A stretch of DNA of 64,000 nt. Source: Paludibacteraceae bacterium (lineage in GTDB: Bacteria; Bacteroidota; Bacteroidia; Bacteroidales; Paludibacteraceae). The stretch spans positions 62,001-126,000 of the forward strand of contig JAILLP010000018.1 of assembly GCA_024693065.1 (NCBI GenBank), written 5' to 3'. The notes beneath the pieces were generated by a model. It made no database searches. It was not told the origin of the DNA and saw nothing but the letters and a program-made list of their open reading frames with translations. A program made the position numbers and the translations under genes. This document shows, in pieces, positions 14,284 through 47,340 of this stretch (the stretch's first letter is position 1; each line of letters starts with the position of its first letter).

Positions 14284-15072
14284 CTACCATGGCTTGTGAG
14301 CGCTCAAGAAAGAATCTCTTTGCGCACTCGGAAAAGTTTGCGGTCCAATGGCACCTCCTCCATACTCAAAGACGACCGTCTCGCTGTAGGGTATATACGC
14401 CGGATCTTCCATATAATACTCTTTATTCTCTTCGCTCATAGGCTCGTCATACAGGATGTATGAATACAATCCCATGGCTACCCTGCGAAACCATATTACA
14501 CATGAGGCTCTGTCTTTTCTGGTAATAATTCCGATACAACCCAACTCATCAAGACGGTCCTGTATCTCTTCCAACTCATCGGTGGTAAGTCCCACCAACG
14601 CCATAATAGAATCCTTCTTATCCTCAGCATCCTTGTCCCAATGCTCCGACCATGAAACATTCTTGGAGGAAACATGGAAAATAGAGATATCACCATGCTC
14701 AAACTCCAACTGAATGGTAGCCGAATCATCCAATGCCTGATTCGTATATTGAACCAACTCCTTCATTTTCACCGCGTTCTTCTCATAATGCTCCGCCATT
14801 ATATCCGGATCACAAACAGTATTTGGAGCCTCAAACACATTGTAAACAACCACAAGGAGTATATCAATGACTCCCCATACGAAATAGACCTTCCAGCTGG
14901 TATTTGCAAAAGAAAAAGATTTTATAAAGAGAACGATTGAGGCACCAATAACAGGAAGAACTATAAAAAAGAGGAATAAGCAGATCAAATCTGCCATGAA
15001 TTTATCATAGAAATGTAACAAAATAATGATTGTCGTCGCCAGCAACGGAATAAACTTCAAAACCTGCTTCAT
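14284..15072 (-). CDS. Hypothetical membrane-anchored protein
   Basis: 262 aa, family not recognised. Three hydrophobic helices lie in the first 95 residues (LKFIPLLATTIIILLHF, ADLICLFLFFIVLPVIGASIVLF, VYFVWGVIDILLVVVYNV). A soluble domain of about 165 residues follows, with a mixed alpha/beta look (IQLEFEHGDISIFHVSSKNVSW; LVGLTTDELEEIQDRLDELGCIGI). Acidic residues are frequent. It is transcribed toward argC with a 100-base gap. Its AT-rich upstream region is followed by the 40-bp repeat array of the divergent ATPase gene, so the two may share control. Confidence 0.65.
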   Translation of the reverse strand: MKQVLKFIPLLATTIIILLHFYDKFMADLICLFLFFIVLPVIGASIVLFIKSFSFANTSWKVYFVWGVIDILLVVVYNVFEAPNTVCDPDIMAEHYEKNAVKMKELVQYTNQALDDSATIQLEFEHGDISIFHVSSKNVSWSEHWDKDAEDKKDSIMALVGLTTDELEEIQDRLDELGCIGIITRKDRASCVIWFRRVAMGLYSYILYDEPMSEENKEYYMEDPAYIPYSETVVFEYGGGAIGPQTFPSAQRDSFLSAHKPW

Positions 15073-15166
15073 GCCTAAAAAATAATTAGTTCACGACCCA
15101 AAAGTAAAAAGAATATCTCAATATGAAAATATCTTATCCCCGCTGCGGTTATCTGTAAAAACAATT

Positions 15167-15308
15167 AAAAGTTTCGGTTATAATAGGAAATTATGTCTGT
15201 TTCGGTAAAAGTTTCGGTTATAGTAGAAAATTTATTGTTTTTACGGAAAAGTTTCTGTTATGATAGAAACTTTTGTATATTTGTGGAAAAGTTTCGGTTA
15301 TGATAGAA
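15167..15308 (+). repeat. Four-copy, 40-bp-period tandem repeat at the promoter of the first DUF4143 ATPase
   Basis: A 20-nt core, AAAAGTTTCGGTTATRATAG, starts at 15167, 15207, 15247 and 15287, exactly 40 bp apart. Only three positions vary among the four cores. The 20-nt intervals are T-rich and less conserved. The third interval holds the promoter box TATATTTG (15276-15283), and the fourth core forms the presumed mRNA leader and includes the start codon ATG 15300. The core of copy 3 overlaps the expected -33 region. Confidence 0.9.
15276..15283 (+). promoter_or_regulatory. -7 promoter box within the 40-bp repeat array
   Basis: TATATTTG fits TAnnTTTG. Transcription would start near 15290, leaving a leader of only about 10-22 nt. 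Confidence 0.55.
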
Positions 15309-16595
15309 CAAATGGAAAATATTAGAGCCTACAACCCGTGGGGAGGAAACGATATCGCTCTAGGCTATAGGCGTGACTTCTATATGACAAAGATTACCCC
15401 TTACATCGGTAATTCTTTGGTGAAGGTGCTTACGGGGCAGCGAAGGACAGGCAAGAGCTACATTCTTCGTCAAATAGCCATGGAGCTTATACACAATGGG
15501 ATAGCACCTGAAAACATATTGTTCATCAACGCCGAGTTCTCCGCCTTCAACTTCTTGCAGACGCACGAAGATCTTGAGAAACTCATTCAGGAGTACCGCA
15601 AGGAATTGTCCCCCAAAGGCAAATTCTTCCTTTTCATCGACGAAGTGCAAAACATAACCGGCTGGGAAAGGAGTGTCAACTCGCTATCCCAGGACTTCAC
15701 CACCCCCTGCGAAGTATTCATCAGCGGATCCAACTCGACCATGCTCTCGGGAGAACTGGCGACGCACCTATCGGGGCGATATGTTCAGTTTGAAATACTC
15801 CCTTTCTCCTATAGGGAGTGGTGCGATGTCCACCATAAGGAGCAAGGCTTTGATAGTTACGAGGAATATCTTCATGACGGGGGACTACCCGAGCTGATAC
15901 ACCTCAACGACGACGAAGTGAGACGTCATTACATGTCCAGCCTCAAAGACACCATCCTGCTTCGCGACATTATCTCACGGTACTCCATCAGAGACCCCAA
16001 ACTGTTGGAAGACCTTTTCGTCTACACCGTGAACAATGCGACAAAGCTCACAACGCCCAACAACATCGTGAAGTTCTACAAAGGGAAGGGGAAGAAGGTG
16101 AACTACGAAACCGTAGCGTCGTACCTCGCCTATATGACGGAGACCTACATTATCCATAAAACCGAGCGATACAACATTCAAGGCAAGGAAACCATTGCGG
16201 GGAACTGCAAATACTACATCAACGACCTCTCATTCTACAATTATCTCTACAGAGGCTTTTCTTTCGGGGCTGGCTATGAACTGGAGAATCTAATCTATCT
16301 GGAGCTACGCAGAGCCGGTTACGAAGTCTATGTGGGAACCATACAGGGCACCCACACAGATGAGCAAAGCGAGGTCGATTTCGTGGCCATAAACGGAGAC
16401 AAAAAAATCTACGTGCAGGCTTCATACGAGACAAGCGATCCCAAAACGCTGGAGCGGGAATACTCCTCTTTGGAGCTCATCCAAGACCACTACCCCAAAT
16501 TCGTCGTAACCCTAGATAAGTTCCAACGTCCCAACAGAAACGGTATTGTGCATGTACTGGCACCGGAGTTCCACAAGGTGTTGGAGAGGATTTGA
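15300..16595 (+). CDS. AAA ATPase of the DUF4143 family (first copy)
   Basis: 431 aa from ATG 15300; ATG 15312 is also possible, and an upstream in-frame TTG at 15273 is unlikely because it precedes the promoter box. Walker A is GQRRTGKSY and Walker B FLFIDEVQN, followed by the sensor-like FISGSNSTML and LSGRYVQFEILPFSYREW. The C-terminal DUF4143 part resembles a PD-(D/E)xK nuclease fold. It keeps SEVDFVAI, but the expected E-x-K is replaced by Q-A-S (KIYVQAS), so nuclease activity is doubtful. The function of this widespread family is not settled. A second, divergent copy follows. Confidence 0.88.
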   Translation: MIEQMENIRAYNPWGGNDIALGYRRDFYMTKITPYIGNSLVKVLTGQRRTGKSYILRQIAMELIHNGIAPENILFINAEFSAFNFLQTHEDLEKLIQEYRKELSPKGKFFLFIDEVQNITGWERSVNSLSQDFTTPCEVFISGSNSTMLSGELATHLSGRYVQFEILPFSYREWCDVHHKEQGFDSYEEYLHDGGLPELIHLNDDEVRRHYMSSLKDTILLRDIISRYSIRDPKLLEDLFVYTVNNATKLTTPNNIVKFYKGKGKKVNYETVASYLAYMTETYIIHKTERYNIQGKETIAGNCKYYINDLSFYNYLYRGFSFGAGYELENLIYLELRRAGYEVYVGTIQGTHTDEQSEVDFVAINGDKKIYVQASYETSDPKTLEREYSSLELIQDHYPKFVVTLDKFQRPNRNGIVHVLAPEFHKVLERI

Positions 16596-16596
16596 C

Positions 16597-16713
16597 GGTC
16601 AGGAAAATGTGATGGATTCCGCACATCATGGTTAGGAAAATGTGATGATTTTAAGATTTTATGGTTAGGAAAATGTGAAAGTTTTATATATTTGCGGTTA
16701 GAAAAATGTGATA
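16597..16713 (+). repeat. Four-copy, 33-bp-period tandem repeat at the promoter of the second DUF4143 ATPase
   Basis: An 18-nt core, GGTTAGGAAAATGTGATG, starts at 16597, 16630, 16663 and 16696, exactly 33 bp apart, beginning 2 bases after the stop of the previous ATPase gene. Cores differ at one to three positions; the 15-nt intervals diverge. The third interval holds TATATTTG (16687-16694), and the fourth core forms the leader. The core of copy 3 supplies TTA at the -33 position with 20-bp spacing. Confidence 0.9.
16687..16694 (+). promoter_or_regulatory. -7 promoter box within the 33-bp repeat array
   Basis: TATATTTG, identical to the box in the first array. The predicted leader is about 20 nt and contains an ATG-TGA start-stop pair at 16706-16711. 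Confidence 0.55.
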
Positions 16714-16720
16714 AAACAAT

Positions 16721-18028
16721 ATGTATAGAACTGATATAGAGAATCTTAAAAAATGGAAAGATAATCCAGAAAGGCAACCGCTTATTTTATTAGGCGCAAG
16801 GCAAGTAGGCAAGACATGGTTACTGAAGGAATTCGGCAAACAATGTTTCAAAGACGTCTGCTATATAAACTTCGAGCAACCAGGCCAACTAGCCGACCTT
16901 TTCGAAGGCACAATCAACGTCGAACGCATCATAGATTACTTGGGCGTATATTCGGGCAAGAAGATAGAGAAGCAACGTACATTGATCATCTTCGACGAAG
17001 TGCAACAGGTGCCACGCGCCCTCACCTCACTCAAATATTTTGCCGAAGAAGCTCCCGAATACGCCATTTGCTGCGCAGGTTCATTATTGGGTGTGACGTT
17101 GCACAAGGAGACCTCTTTTCCTGTCGGCAAAGTCGATTTCATGACGCTGCAACCTCTCTCGTTCCGCGAGTTCCTGTTGGCTATTGGAGAGGAGCAGACC
17201 ATAGATTTTGTCGGCAAATACTATGCGGAAGGGCTTCCCCAGACAGTGATCGAAAAGCTCATCGACCACCTGAAGACATATTTTATCGTAGGAGGAATGC
17301 CCAAAGCGGTGGACGAATGGGCCAAGAAACGCGATTTCAACCGCATCACAAAAGTACAGGAGGATATATTGCTGGCATATCAAAATGACTTCTCCAAACA
17401 TGCTCCCACGAACATCGTGCCTAAACTGCACCACGTCTGGAATTCCATACCCAGCCAATTAGCGAAAGAGAACAAAAAGTTCGTCTACGGAGTCATACGC
17501 GATGGCGCGCGTGCCCGAGAATACGAAGATGCGCTGTTATGGCTGAAAGACAGCGGACTGATACGCCGTGTGGGGATGGTATCTGGCGGACGTTTGCCTC
17601 TCAAAGCCTACGAAGACCTCAAAAACTTCAAGATATACCATCTCGACGTCGGATTGTTGCGATGCATGTGCGAAATCGACCCAACGGTCATTTTGGGGGA
17701 TGAACATGTTTTTTCCGAGTTCCGTGGTAGTCTGACCGAGCAGTTCGTGTTGCAGGAATTCACAAGCCTCAACATCGCAAAAAACATTTACTATTGGTCG
17801 GAGGGTGCGACATCGGAGGTCGATTTCATCTTCTCCCACAACGGACGGGTGATACCATGCGAGGCAAAAGCGGGACTGAATGTGCATGCCCAAAGCCTGA
17901 GAGTGTTCATGAATAAATATAACCCGGAAATAGCATTGCGCACATCGCTTAAAAATTTCCGCCAAGATAATGCGCTGATCAACTTGCCACTCTATGAACT
18001 CTGGCTATTACCAAAGATATTAGAGTAA
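16721..18028 (+). CDS. AAA ATPase of the DUF4143 family (second copy)
   Basis: 435 aa, starting MYRTDIENLKKWKDNPERQP. Walker A is GARQVGKTW and Walker B LIIFDEVQQ; CCAGSLLGVTL and FMTLQPLSFREFL follow. The C-terminal DUF4143/PD-(D/E)xK-like part keeps both SEVDFIF and CEAKAGLN, so unlike the upstream copy the nuclease-type E-x-K is intact. Overall similarity to the first copy is low outside the motifs, so this is not a recent duplication. Its promoter sits in its own repeat array with a different unit sequence. A terminator for the opposite strand lies just downstream. No toxin or antitoxin partner is visible. Confidence 0.9.
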   Translation: MYRTDIENLKKWKDNPERQPLILLGARQVGKTWLLKEFGKQCFKDVCYINFEQPGQLADLFEGTINVERIIDYLGVYSGKKIEKQRTLIIFDEVQQVPRALTSLKYFAEEAPEYAICCAGSLLGVTLHKETSFPVGKVDFMTLQPLSFREFLLAIGEEQTIDFVGKYYAEGLPQTVIEKLIDHLKTYFIVGGMPKAVDEWAKKRDFNRITKVQEDILLAYQNDFSKHAPTNIVPKLHHVWNSIPSQLAKENKKFVYGVIRDGARAREYEDALLWLKDSGLIRRVGMVSGGRLPLKAYEDLKNFKIYHLDVGLLRCMCEIDPTVILGDEHVFSEFRGSLTEQFVLQEFTSLNIAKNIYYWSEGATSEVDFIFSHNGRVIPCEAKAGLNVHAQSLRVFMNKYNPEIALRTSLKNFRQDNALINLPLYELWLLPKILE

Positions 18029-18054
18029 CCCAACTGTTATCACAAAAGGCGCAC

Positions 18055-18085
18055 AAAAAAGCCGACAACGCAAAACATTGTCGGC
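18055..18085 (-). terminator. Terminator of the rprXY transcript
   Basis: GCCGACAA (18061-18068) pairs with TTGTCGGC (18078-18085). The A run at 18055-18060 is a U run in the minus-strand RNA, just past the rprY stop. Confidence 0.85.
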
Positions 18086-18110
18086 TCCCATCATCATTAA
18101 CTTAAAACAT

Positions 18111-18818
18111 TTATTCACCCTTTGGCTCCTCCGGGATCACAATCTTGTAGCCTTTGCCATGCACATTGATGATCTCCACTTGAGGATCTGCCTTCAACAA
18201 TTTACGTAACTTAGTGATATAGACATCCATGCTCCGCGCGTTGAAATAGTTATCGTCCACCCAGATGGTCTTCAGGGCACGGTTGCGCTCGAGGATGTCG
18301 TTCTTGTGCTCGCAGAGCAAGGCGAGCAATTCGGACTCCTTGGTGGTCAGTTTCGTGGACTCGCCATCGATGGTGAGGAGCTGCTTTTGGGAGTCGAACG
18401 TGAACTTGCCCAACTTCTGGATAGGATCCGCAGCACCCTTCTTGCCGTTCACGCGACGGAGGATCGCCTCGATACGAAGCAACAGCTCCTCCATGCTGAA
18501 AGGCTTGGTGATATAGTCGTCGGCACCGATACGGAACCCCTCGACGATATCCTCCTTGAGGGTCTTGGCGGTCAAGAAAAGAATAGGCACCTTTTCGTTC
18601 ACCTGCCTGATCTCCTGCGCCAACGTGAAGCCATCCTTCTTAGGCATCATCACGTCTAGGACACACACGTCATACTTACCCGCGAAGAATGCGTTGCCAC
18701 CCTCTTCGCCATCCAGCTTCAGGTCCACATCGTAGCCCTTAGCGTGCAAATACTCCCTCAGCAACATGCCAAGGTTCTCGTCGTCTTCGCACAACAGAAT
18801 TTTTATCTTCTCGTCCAT
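18111..18818 (-). CDS. rprY: OmpR-type response regulator (RprY-like)
   Basis: 235 aa. The receiver domain (1-120) has the acidic pocket CEDDE, phospho-acceptor Asp55 (VLDVMMPKKDG), the conserved LTAKT and Lys in ITKPFS. The winged-helix domain (about 140-230) contains TTKESELLALLC and SMDVYITKLRKLL. The text is very close to RprY of B. fragilis and P. gingivalis. It acts as a DNA-binding regulator paired with the kinase 20 bases upstream. In P. gingivalis RprY has been linked to stress and sodium-related genes; the regulon here is unknown. Confidence 0.92.
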   Translation of the reverse strand: MDEKIKILLCEDDENLGMLLREYLHAKGYDVDLKLDGEEGGNAFFAGKYDVCVLDVMMPKKDGFTLAQEIRQVNEKVPILFLTAKTLKEDIVEGFRIGADDYITKPFSMEELLLRIEAILRRVNGKKGAADPIQKLGKFTFDSQKQLLTIDGESTKLTTKESELLALLCEHKNDILERNRALKTIWVDDNYFNARSMDVYITKLRKLLKADPQVEIINVHGKGYKIVIPEEPKGE

Positions 18819-47202: not shown

Positions 47203-47310
47203 ACAACAATACGCATGTGGGAGGGGTGAACCATGTTTCATATAACGGATAATTTTGTTACAAATGCAAAAAACATGCGGTGAAATCGCCTTTTTTAGCA
47301 CATTTTTAGT

Positions 47311-47318
47311 TAGATTTG
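47311..47318 (+). promoter_or_regulatory. -7 promoter box for the rdgB-porZ-tsaE run
   Basis: TAGATTTG fits TAnnTTTG. A start near 47325 is too close to ATG 47329 and favours ATG 47341. Confidence 0.5.
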
Positions 47319-47340
47319 TATCGAAAATATGACAGAAAGA

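Follow-up and report, generated by a model that had tools for sequence, protein, structure and literature searches.

Gene-specific repeat arrays upstream of AAA_14-DUF4143 (PDC-S01) ATPase genes as candidate operators

Introduction

Two adjacent genes in a Paludibacteraceae genome, here called gene 1 and gene 2, encode ATPases of the DUF4143 type, and in front of each lies a tandem array of short repeats that differs from the array of its neighbor. This locus raises the question of what such arrays are for, and why each paralogue should have one of its own. We approached it by comparing the arrays in the window (the whole stretch of 64,000 nucleotides that was analyzed) with the upstream regions of family genes from the same genome, the same genus and class, and more distant relatives. 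The gene pair is flanked by an argC-like and a response-regulator-like gene, and the names of these two flanking genes were read from their translations. The features referred to below are as follows.

15167..15306, + strand: gene 1 array, four cores of the type AAAAGTTTC(G/T)GTTAT.(A/G)TAG (sequence and TRF)
15276..15283, + strand: TATATTTG box in the last interval of the gene 1 array (sequence)
15300..16595, + strand: gene 1, AAA_14-DUF4143 ATPase, PDC-S01 (ATG at 15300 or 15312)
16597..16614, + strand: core copy 1 of gene 2, GGTCAGGAAAATGTGATG (sequence; 1 mismatch to the 16-nt core)
16630..16647, + strand: core copy 2, GGTTAGGAAAATGTGATG (sequence and TRF; the sole exact 18-mer)
16663..16680, + strand: core copy 3, GGTTAGGAAAATGTGAAA (sequence and TRF)
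16687..16694, + strand: TATATTTG, putative promoter box between cores 3 and 4 (sequence)
16696..16713, + strand: core copy 4, GGTTAGAAAAATGTGATA (sequence; at the presumed transcription start and leader)
16721..18028, + strand: gene 2, AAA_14-DUF4143 ATPase of 435 aa, PDC-S01 (Pfam, PADLOC, AlphaFold2 model)
16772..17176, + strand: AAA_14 domain, gene 2 residues 18-152 (Pfam; Walker A and B invariant in 56 sequences)
17417..17641, + strand: predicted winged helix, residues ~233-307 (AlphaFold2 secondary structure; Foldseek likeness to Orc1/Cdc6)
17705..18025, + strand: predicted PD-(D/E)XK nuclease part, residues ~329-435 (AlphaFold2 model; E366, D368, E381 and K383 invariant)

Results

Two adjacent arrays of different sequence and period

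The array in front of gene 2 consists of four cores at an exact step of 33 bp (16597-16713), as a preliminary description of this DNA had stated; TRF recovers it at 16628-16714 with period 33 and score 111. Two details of that description needed correction. The array does adjoin the gene 1 stop codon (16593-16595), but a single base rather than two separates the stop from core copy 1; and while the four sites are there, the proposed 18-nt core is exact only in copy 2, with copies 1, 3 and 4 deviating at 1, 2 and 2 positions. A 16-nt core, GGTTAGGAAAATGTGA, matches all four copies with at most one mismatch. In agreement with what had been described, the last interval holds TATATTTG, which by its match to the consensus we take to be a Bacteroidota-type -7 promoter box, and the last core falls in the presumed leader, ending 7 bases before the ATG of gene 2. 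The repeats thus overlap or flank the gene's own putative promoter box, and three of the four copies lie upstream of it.

The gene 1 array has the different sequence and period that had been claimed for it, with cores starting at 15167, 15207, 15247 and 15287, an exact 40-bp step (TRF: 15166-15308, period 40, score 152). The two arrays are alike in design: each has TATATTTG between its third and fourth cores, and its final core falls within the presumed leader or over the start codon. Upstream of gene 1, a frame at 14284-15072 encodes a predicted protein of 262 aa that is present at the locus in genome G005 and absent in G009, so the segment around gene 1 is itself variable.

In the 64-kb window, TRF reported no further array scoring above 58 besides these two. 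Outside the gene 2 array, GGTTAGGAAAATGTGA occurred nowhere in the 3.48-Mb genome with up to one mismatch; there were no sites with two mismatches and 25 with three, and a reversed control pattern gave 25 in total. Chance as an explanation is rejected by the shuffles, the matched controls and this whole-genome scan. The gene 2 array also departs from two familiar kinds of element. CRISPR arrays are defined by identical repeats with unique spacers of ~25-50 nt, whereas the gene 2 array has 15-nt spacers, imperfect cores and an internal promoter box; and a CRP/FNR palindrome would read TGTGA-N6-TCACA, where the gene 2 array has four direct repeats.

The encoded proteins

Both proteins scored above the Pfam cut-offs for AAA_14 and DUF4143 (27 and 28.1 bits), with 111.2 and 45.0 bits for gene 1, which was submitted to the tools as the longer frame starting at TTG 15273, and 96.2 and 108.4 bits for gene 2. 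The PADLOC models for PDC-S01, a family that we take to be of the COG1373 type, matched both nearly over their full length (E 4.9e-136 for gene 1 and 2.6e-173 for gene 2). Among 56 sequences, all from the gene 2 clade, residues G25, R27, Q28, G30, K31 and T32, D92 and E93, and E366, D368, E381 and K383 are invariant, and we read these Walker and PD-(D/E)XK residues as putative catalytic residues. An AlphaFold2 model of the gene 2 protein built with these 56 sequences (mean pLDDT 92.4, pTM 0.92) suggests an AAA+ part, a winged helix and a PD-(D/E)XK nuclease part. Its best Foldseek matches were the archaeal ATPases 2qen and 2fna, then 2qby (Orc1/Cdc6 on origin DNA), with 2v1u (Orc1 with DNA) in fifth place; since the TM-scores by query length are modest (0.44, 0.44, 0.29 and 0.30, respectively), the likeness concerns domains rather than the whole protein. 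A sequence search of the PDB gave a single match, at E 0.28.

The available text of PMC12988326 presents PDC-S01 as an ATPase fused to PD-(D/E)XK and a phage-defence candidate, ranks it as the fourth most common defence in prokaryotes, and states that most such candidates still await experimental validation. The AAA_14-DUF4143 family is also treated as a defence candidate in the available text of PMC13356809.

Upstream repeats are enriched across the family

It had been proposed that such arrays are a trait of this ATPase family, a view that a lack of enrichment over genes of similar AT content would have undermined. The source genome has 14 DUF4143 genes. At 11 of these, TRF detects an array within 350 bp upstream, and on visual comparison the cores differ. 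TRF reports none at L016, L018 and L019, but two or three copies can be made out by eye at the latter two. Across the genus and class sample, TRF arrays (score at least 50, period 18-60) precede 82 of 169 distinct family genes and 19 of 366 matched controls (gap at least 60 bp, AT at least 0.6), and 31 of all 983 control genes. When only periods of 30-34 are counted, the comparison becomes 65/169 against 6/366. For these counts, 148 of 1131 controls were removed for sharing a 30-mer with a family locus, some control arrays being family arrays seen from the neighboring gene.

A score against dinucleotide shuffles gave the same picture, with direct repeats (z at least 4) at 169 of 301 family genes and 11 of 250 controls, in a gene set that is enriched for the gene 2 clade, because 80 of its loci were fetched by similarity to gene 2, and with controls drawn from genus and class loci only. 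The enrichment therefore bears out the proposed family trait by both measures. Inverted repeats were found at 110/301 family genes and 22/250 controls, and repeats of either type at 217/301 and 31/250. Because the inverted score has this sizeable background in controls, perhaps from terminators, we gave direct repeats more weight. Neither type was found at 84 of the 301 family genes, and some clusters have almost none; Archaea are represented by one uncertain MAG contig (L215). Relatedness fails to explain the enrichment, since repeats of either type occur in at least half of the members of most clusters, whether these are drawn at 70% (152/207), 50% (63/81) or 40% identity (23/29).

Among the 169 direct-repeat genes, the spacing is 32 bp in 50 and 33 bp in 87 (together 137), followed by 40 bp (14), 21-23 bp (10), 42-44 bp (5) and other values (3). 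Repeat type varies with protein length: direct repeats precede 120/194 genes for proteins of at least 412 aa, 20/29 for 396-411 aa and 29/78 below 396 aa, and the corresponding counts for inverted repeats are 42/194, 20/29 and 48/78. Direct-repeat arrays are a common design in the family, as had been suggested, but many shorter proteins have inverted repeats; many of their long palindromes are located close to the promoter and vary between genes by eye. Such long promoter palindromes were seen at L083, L086, L089, L134, L151, L159 and others (~385-390 aa), several with a GGAATTnAATTCC-like center. The palindromes of these ~385-390-aa proteins are a putative second operator design within the family.

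We also asked whether repeats co-vary with the proteins, a test that had been suggested. For 100 of 116 representatives, the spacing class is that of the nearest relative (the best of 500 shuffles reached 91), and core similarity rises with protein similarity; among the 21 representatives with spacings outside 31-34, however, the nearest relative agrees in only 8, which is not convincing. The two neighboring arrays had been called convergent, which is probably the wrong word: we infer that a design inherited within the family fits better.

Finally, among 13 previously unused plasmid and phage-contig records, at least two copies were seen by eye in 10 (L379-L387 and L390), from Glaesserella, Fusobacterium, Collinsella, Parabacteroides, Segatella, Bacteroides, Acinetobacter and three contigs deposited as unverified phage; TRF found arrays in 6 of the 13, and L388, L389 and L391 showed none by eye. 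A DNA-level search gave 0 matches in phages and one short match in plasmids.

A bipartite core with a shared 3' half and a gene-specific 5' half

In the gene 2 clade, each site combines a gene-specific 5' half with a 3' half, AAA(A/G)TGT(G/A)A, that recurs in several phyla. The idea of a private repeat for every gene thus applies mainly to the 5' half and does not extend to the 3' half. Across 77 genes (45 clusters) with at least two sites, the 3' half is near-constant, with six positions at 1.8 bits or more, a constancy that is partly by construction because sites were picked by resemblance to this half. The 5' half (~9 nt) has a within-array identity of 0.67-0.82 at positions -9 to -1 and only 0.1-0.8 bits between genes. 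It reads GGTTAGG in the gene 2 array, GGTCAAG in Clostridia relatives at 59% identity, and TCGCCCGA, TTCCCTCAT or TCGTCCGA at other loci.

A scan of 11 genomes of the genus for two half-sites at the correct spacing gave 69 pairs, and the reversed pattern gave 1. Among 80 named relatives, at least two half-sites were found in 31 upstream regions and in 0 of 766 control stretches (AT at least 0.55), the pattern having been chosen after viewing these same 80 upstream regions; TRF alone reports an array in 20 of the 80. The genus genomes, which had partly been seen earlier, and the 13 unseen records, which were scored by eye, are less biased tests. In the named relatives, same-strand spacing is 32 or 33 in 34 of 40 cases, and there are 3 inverted pairs at gap 6. 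Sites were also found at two Mycoplasma loci (L237 and L243). The orientation of the array varies, being opposite to the gene in L052, L053, L244, L277 and L385, which fits a DNA operator better than an RNA element.

The similarity of the 5' halves is 0.27 between proteins of 20-30% identity and climbs to 0.96 between those of 90-100%, although such a joint rise of core and protein similarity would also be expected from common descent alone. At the level of single residues, covariation with the 5' half did not exceed the permutation null (top r 0.22; null 95%, 0.22).

Promoter phase and conservation of the cores

Many arrays hold a fixed position relative to a promoter box. Among 26 anchored arrays in Bacteroidota, a TAnnTTTG box lies within the final 90 bp in 16 and has a site upstream of it in 15; in 11 of these 15 the box starts at +6 from the constant half; the gene 2 box, at +17, is an exception. 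Among 51 loci of named relatives, TATAAT occurs in 24, near a site in 21, and at -7 in 14 of those 21, many of which are not independent, as they come from related Lachnospiraceae whose 5' half is itself TATAATA.

The cores are also better conserved than the spacers between them. In relatives at 70-98% identity, agreement in the 5' half is 0.70 and in the spacer 0.47; of 319 site pairs, 251 favor the 5' half and 65 the spacer, and 7 of 8 clusters likewise favor the half. One Clostridia cluster of 18 members accounts for 233 of the 319 pairs. An earlier core-over-spacer count of 302/319 was biased by picking sites on their 3' half, a bias from which the 5' half alone is free. In the Clostridia cluster, where the 5' half often reads TATAATA, the promoter itself may account for both the conserved 5' half and the -7 phase.

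Locus history and arrays without genes

In genomes G005 and G009, gene 2 is missing and three of its cores persist after gene 1. Units are therefore gained or lost, and an array can survive without the gene it preceded. In G008, a stretch of ~145 bp separates the aligned parts of the argC-like and regulator genes, and the family gene is absent. The fetched stretches of G010, G002, G003, G004 and G006 contain the regulator without argC or a family gene, and are therefore little informative.

Of the 69 half-site pairs in the genus, 41 are upstream of a family gene, 10 are downstream of one, and 18 are near no listed one. Among these 18, two precede a gene cut by the contig end (L335), one adjoins a DUF4143 remnant with a stop (G009:C23), and the remaining pairs are without an intact family gene. 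Arrays with the core TCGTCCCGAAAAGTGT, for which no intact family gene was found adjoining, lie at L355 1501-1575 (G000:C7:121039-121113), between what we take to be UPF0102-like and hemW-like genes, and at G001:C28:15239, G005:C40:3400 and G009:C23:16954, the last beside the short stop-containing DUF4143 remnant.

A possible same-core site within 700 bp downstream was found for 16 of 164 genes, several of them single weak matches, against 12 of 820 with shuffled cores. At L004, the gene is followed by another array (G000:C7, ~71260-71342) that has the core of the first and a duplicate of flanking sequence, and a TTGCGTAAATACGC-like element recurs around it. This downstream array probably arose by tandem duplication, after which the second gene was lost; homing of the gene into its own array, which such downstream sites had suggested, is not favored, as the downstream copy carries the duplicated flank. 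Elsewhere, half-site pairs on the opposite strand (G000:C19:45624-45665 and 47265-47339) flank the L018 gene, which has other repeats itself, and the core of these pairs is also found upstream of another family gene (G001:C15).

Discussion

A proposed operator and its alternatives

The comparisons show the gene 2 array itself, frequent arrays upstream of family genes, a core in two parts, cores often in phase with promoter boxes, and better conservation of cores than of spacers. On balance, we consider it probable, by somewhat more than an even chance, that the array is an operator bound by the gene's own ATPase-nuclease, that binding represses the gene, and that the private 5' half prevents cross-regulation; the binder, the repressive effect and the purpose of the private half are what we infer here. 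The encoded AAA+/winged-helix/PD-(D/E)XK protein would use its AAA+ part and winged helix to contact the repeated core. Since the step between most copies is 32-33 bp, or about three turns of the helix, these contacts would probably be cooperative and follow a single face of the DNA. The cores cover or adjoin the -10/-7 box and the presumed start of transcription, so that occupied cores would exclude RNA polymerase and hold the protein at a low level, and with a 5' half-site of its own for each paralogue, the 14 copies in the cell could avoid regulating one another. Against such autoregulation stand the lack of residue-level covariation, the family genes with neither type of repeat (84/301), and the gene-less arrays, which autoregulation does not need.

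The main rival holds that the protein does bind the array, but that regulation is secondary: the array would be a docking or self-recognition site that keeps the nuclease inactive, or that marks mobile DNA with the same unit as self or target. The invariant Walker and PD-(D/E)XK residues, the arrays that persist without genes or flank some genes on both sides, and the relatives on plasmids and unverified phage contigs would all fit such a role, as would the classing of PDC-S01 as a phage-defence candidate in the available text of PMC12988326. Nevertheless, cores hold a fixed phase to promoter boxes at a good part of the loci, the gene 2 core is absent from the rest of its genome, and the two-sided arrays at L004 resemble tandem duplication and loss, so that we regard this role as unlikely. 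Much less probable still is that a different host regulator, of CRP/FNR type, uses the sites to control these genes. The constant half does include the TGTGA half-site, and some loci have palindromes resembling TGTGA-N6-TCACA; yet the 5' half differs among paralogues of one genome, two half-sites occurred in none of the 766 control stretches of the same loci, and sites are present in the Mycoplasma loci, where we know of no CRP.

We give an equally small chance to a function of the repeat as RNA, be it a leader hairpin, a small RNA or a crRNA-like element. While the last gene 2 core lies in the presumed leader and the long palindromes of the shorter proteins could form hairpins, the other three gene 2 copies are placed upstream of the promoter box, array orientation relative to the gene varies, and Rfam gave no match within 15000-18200. 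A neutral minisatellite formed by slippage is the least probable of all: tandem arrays do precede some control genes (19/366), but here the cores are kept while the spacers diverge, lags concentrate at 32-33, 40 and 21-23, and the motif is common to several phyla.

Autorepression through a private operator could also be part of a larger, more speculative scheme, which we rate as doubtful, if a little less so than a pure docking role. In it, PDC-S01 would be a one-gene defence in which a private address keeps the nuclease bound at the promoter of its gene. If the array-bound state were lost or titrated, for instance through invading DNA or a phage protein that acts on the ATPase, the gene would be derepressed and active nuclease set free; the private half would let about a dozen guards coexist in a cell without setting one another off.

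If the operator reading is right, each array predicts the recognition sequence of its protein, which offers a concrete handle on what PDC-S01 proteins may bind, and the code linking protein and half-site could be worked out from the many natural pairs. In many members of this common bacterial family, the largely private promoter arrays suggest self-recognition and self-control gene by gene.

Comparison with known systems

Autoregulatory repeat operators are known as a kind: iterons of plasmid Rep proteins, restriction C-protein boxes and toxin-antitoxin operators all place direct or inverted repeats over their own promoter. The family arrays resemble these in that a gene is preceded by repeats over its promoter, and differ from them in having separate sites for each paralogue, a half shared across phyla, a 32-33 bp spacing, and a single-gene ATPase-nuclease. 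Archaeal Orc1/Cdc6 initiators bind short repeated sites, and the predicted AAA+ part with winged helix recalls them, with the DNA-bound structures 2qby and 2v1u among the top five Foldseek matches; Orc1/Cdc6 sites, however, mark replication origins, whereas the PDC-S01 paralogues have private sites at their own promoters, and a nuclease part. In Bacteroidota, the available text on the BrickBuilt MITE minisatellite of Porphyromonas gingivalis (PMC4596501) describes 23-nt tandem repeats, but these form a single multicopy repeat family within a transposable element that has terminal inverted repeats, unlike arrays specific to each gene, and the word "ATPase" is absent from its available main text. 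The closest match for the proteins themselves is PDC-S01: both products fit its models nearly full length, with the ATPase-PD-(D/E)XK fusion given in the available text of PMC12988326, whose main text, as far as available, contains none of the terms "promoter", "operator", "autoregul" and "tandem". In the open-access literature, no description of PDC-S01 promoter arrays appeared among the matches listed. The protein family is known as a defence candidate; arrays that give every paralogue of so common an ATPase-nuclease an address of its own would be a new form of the known repeat operators.
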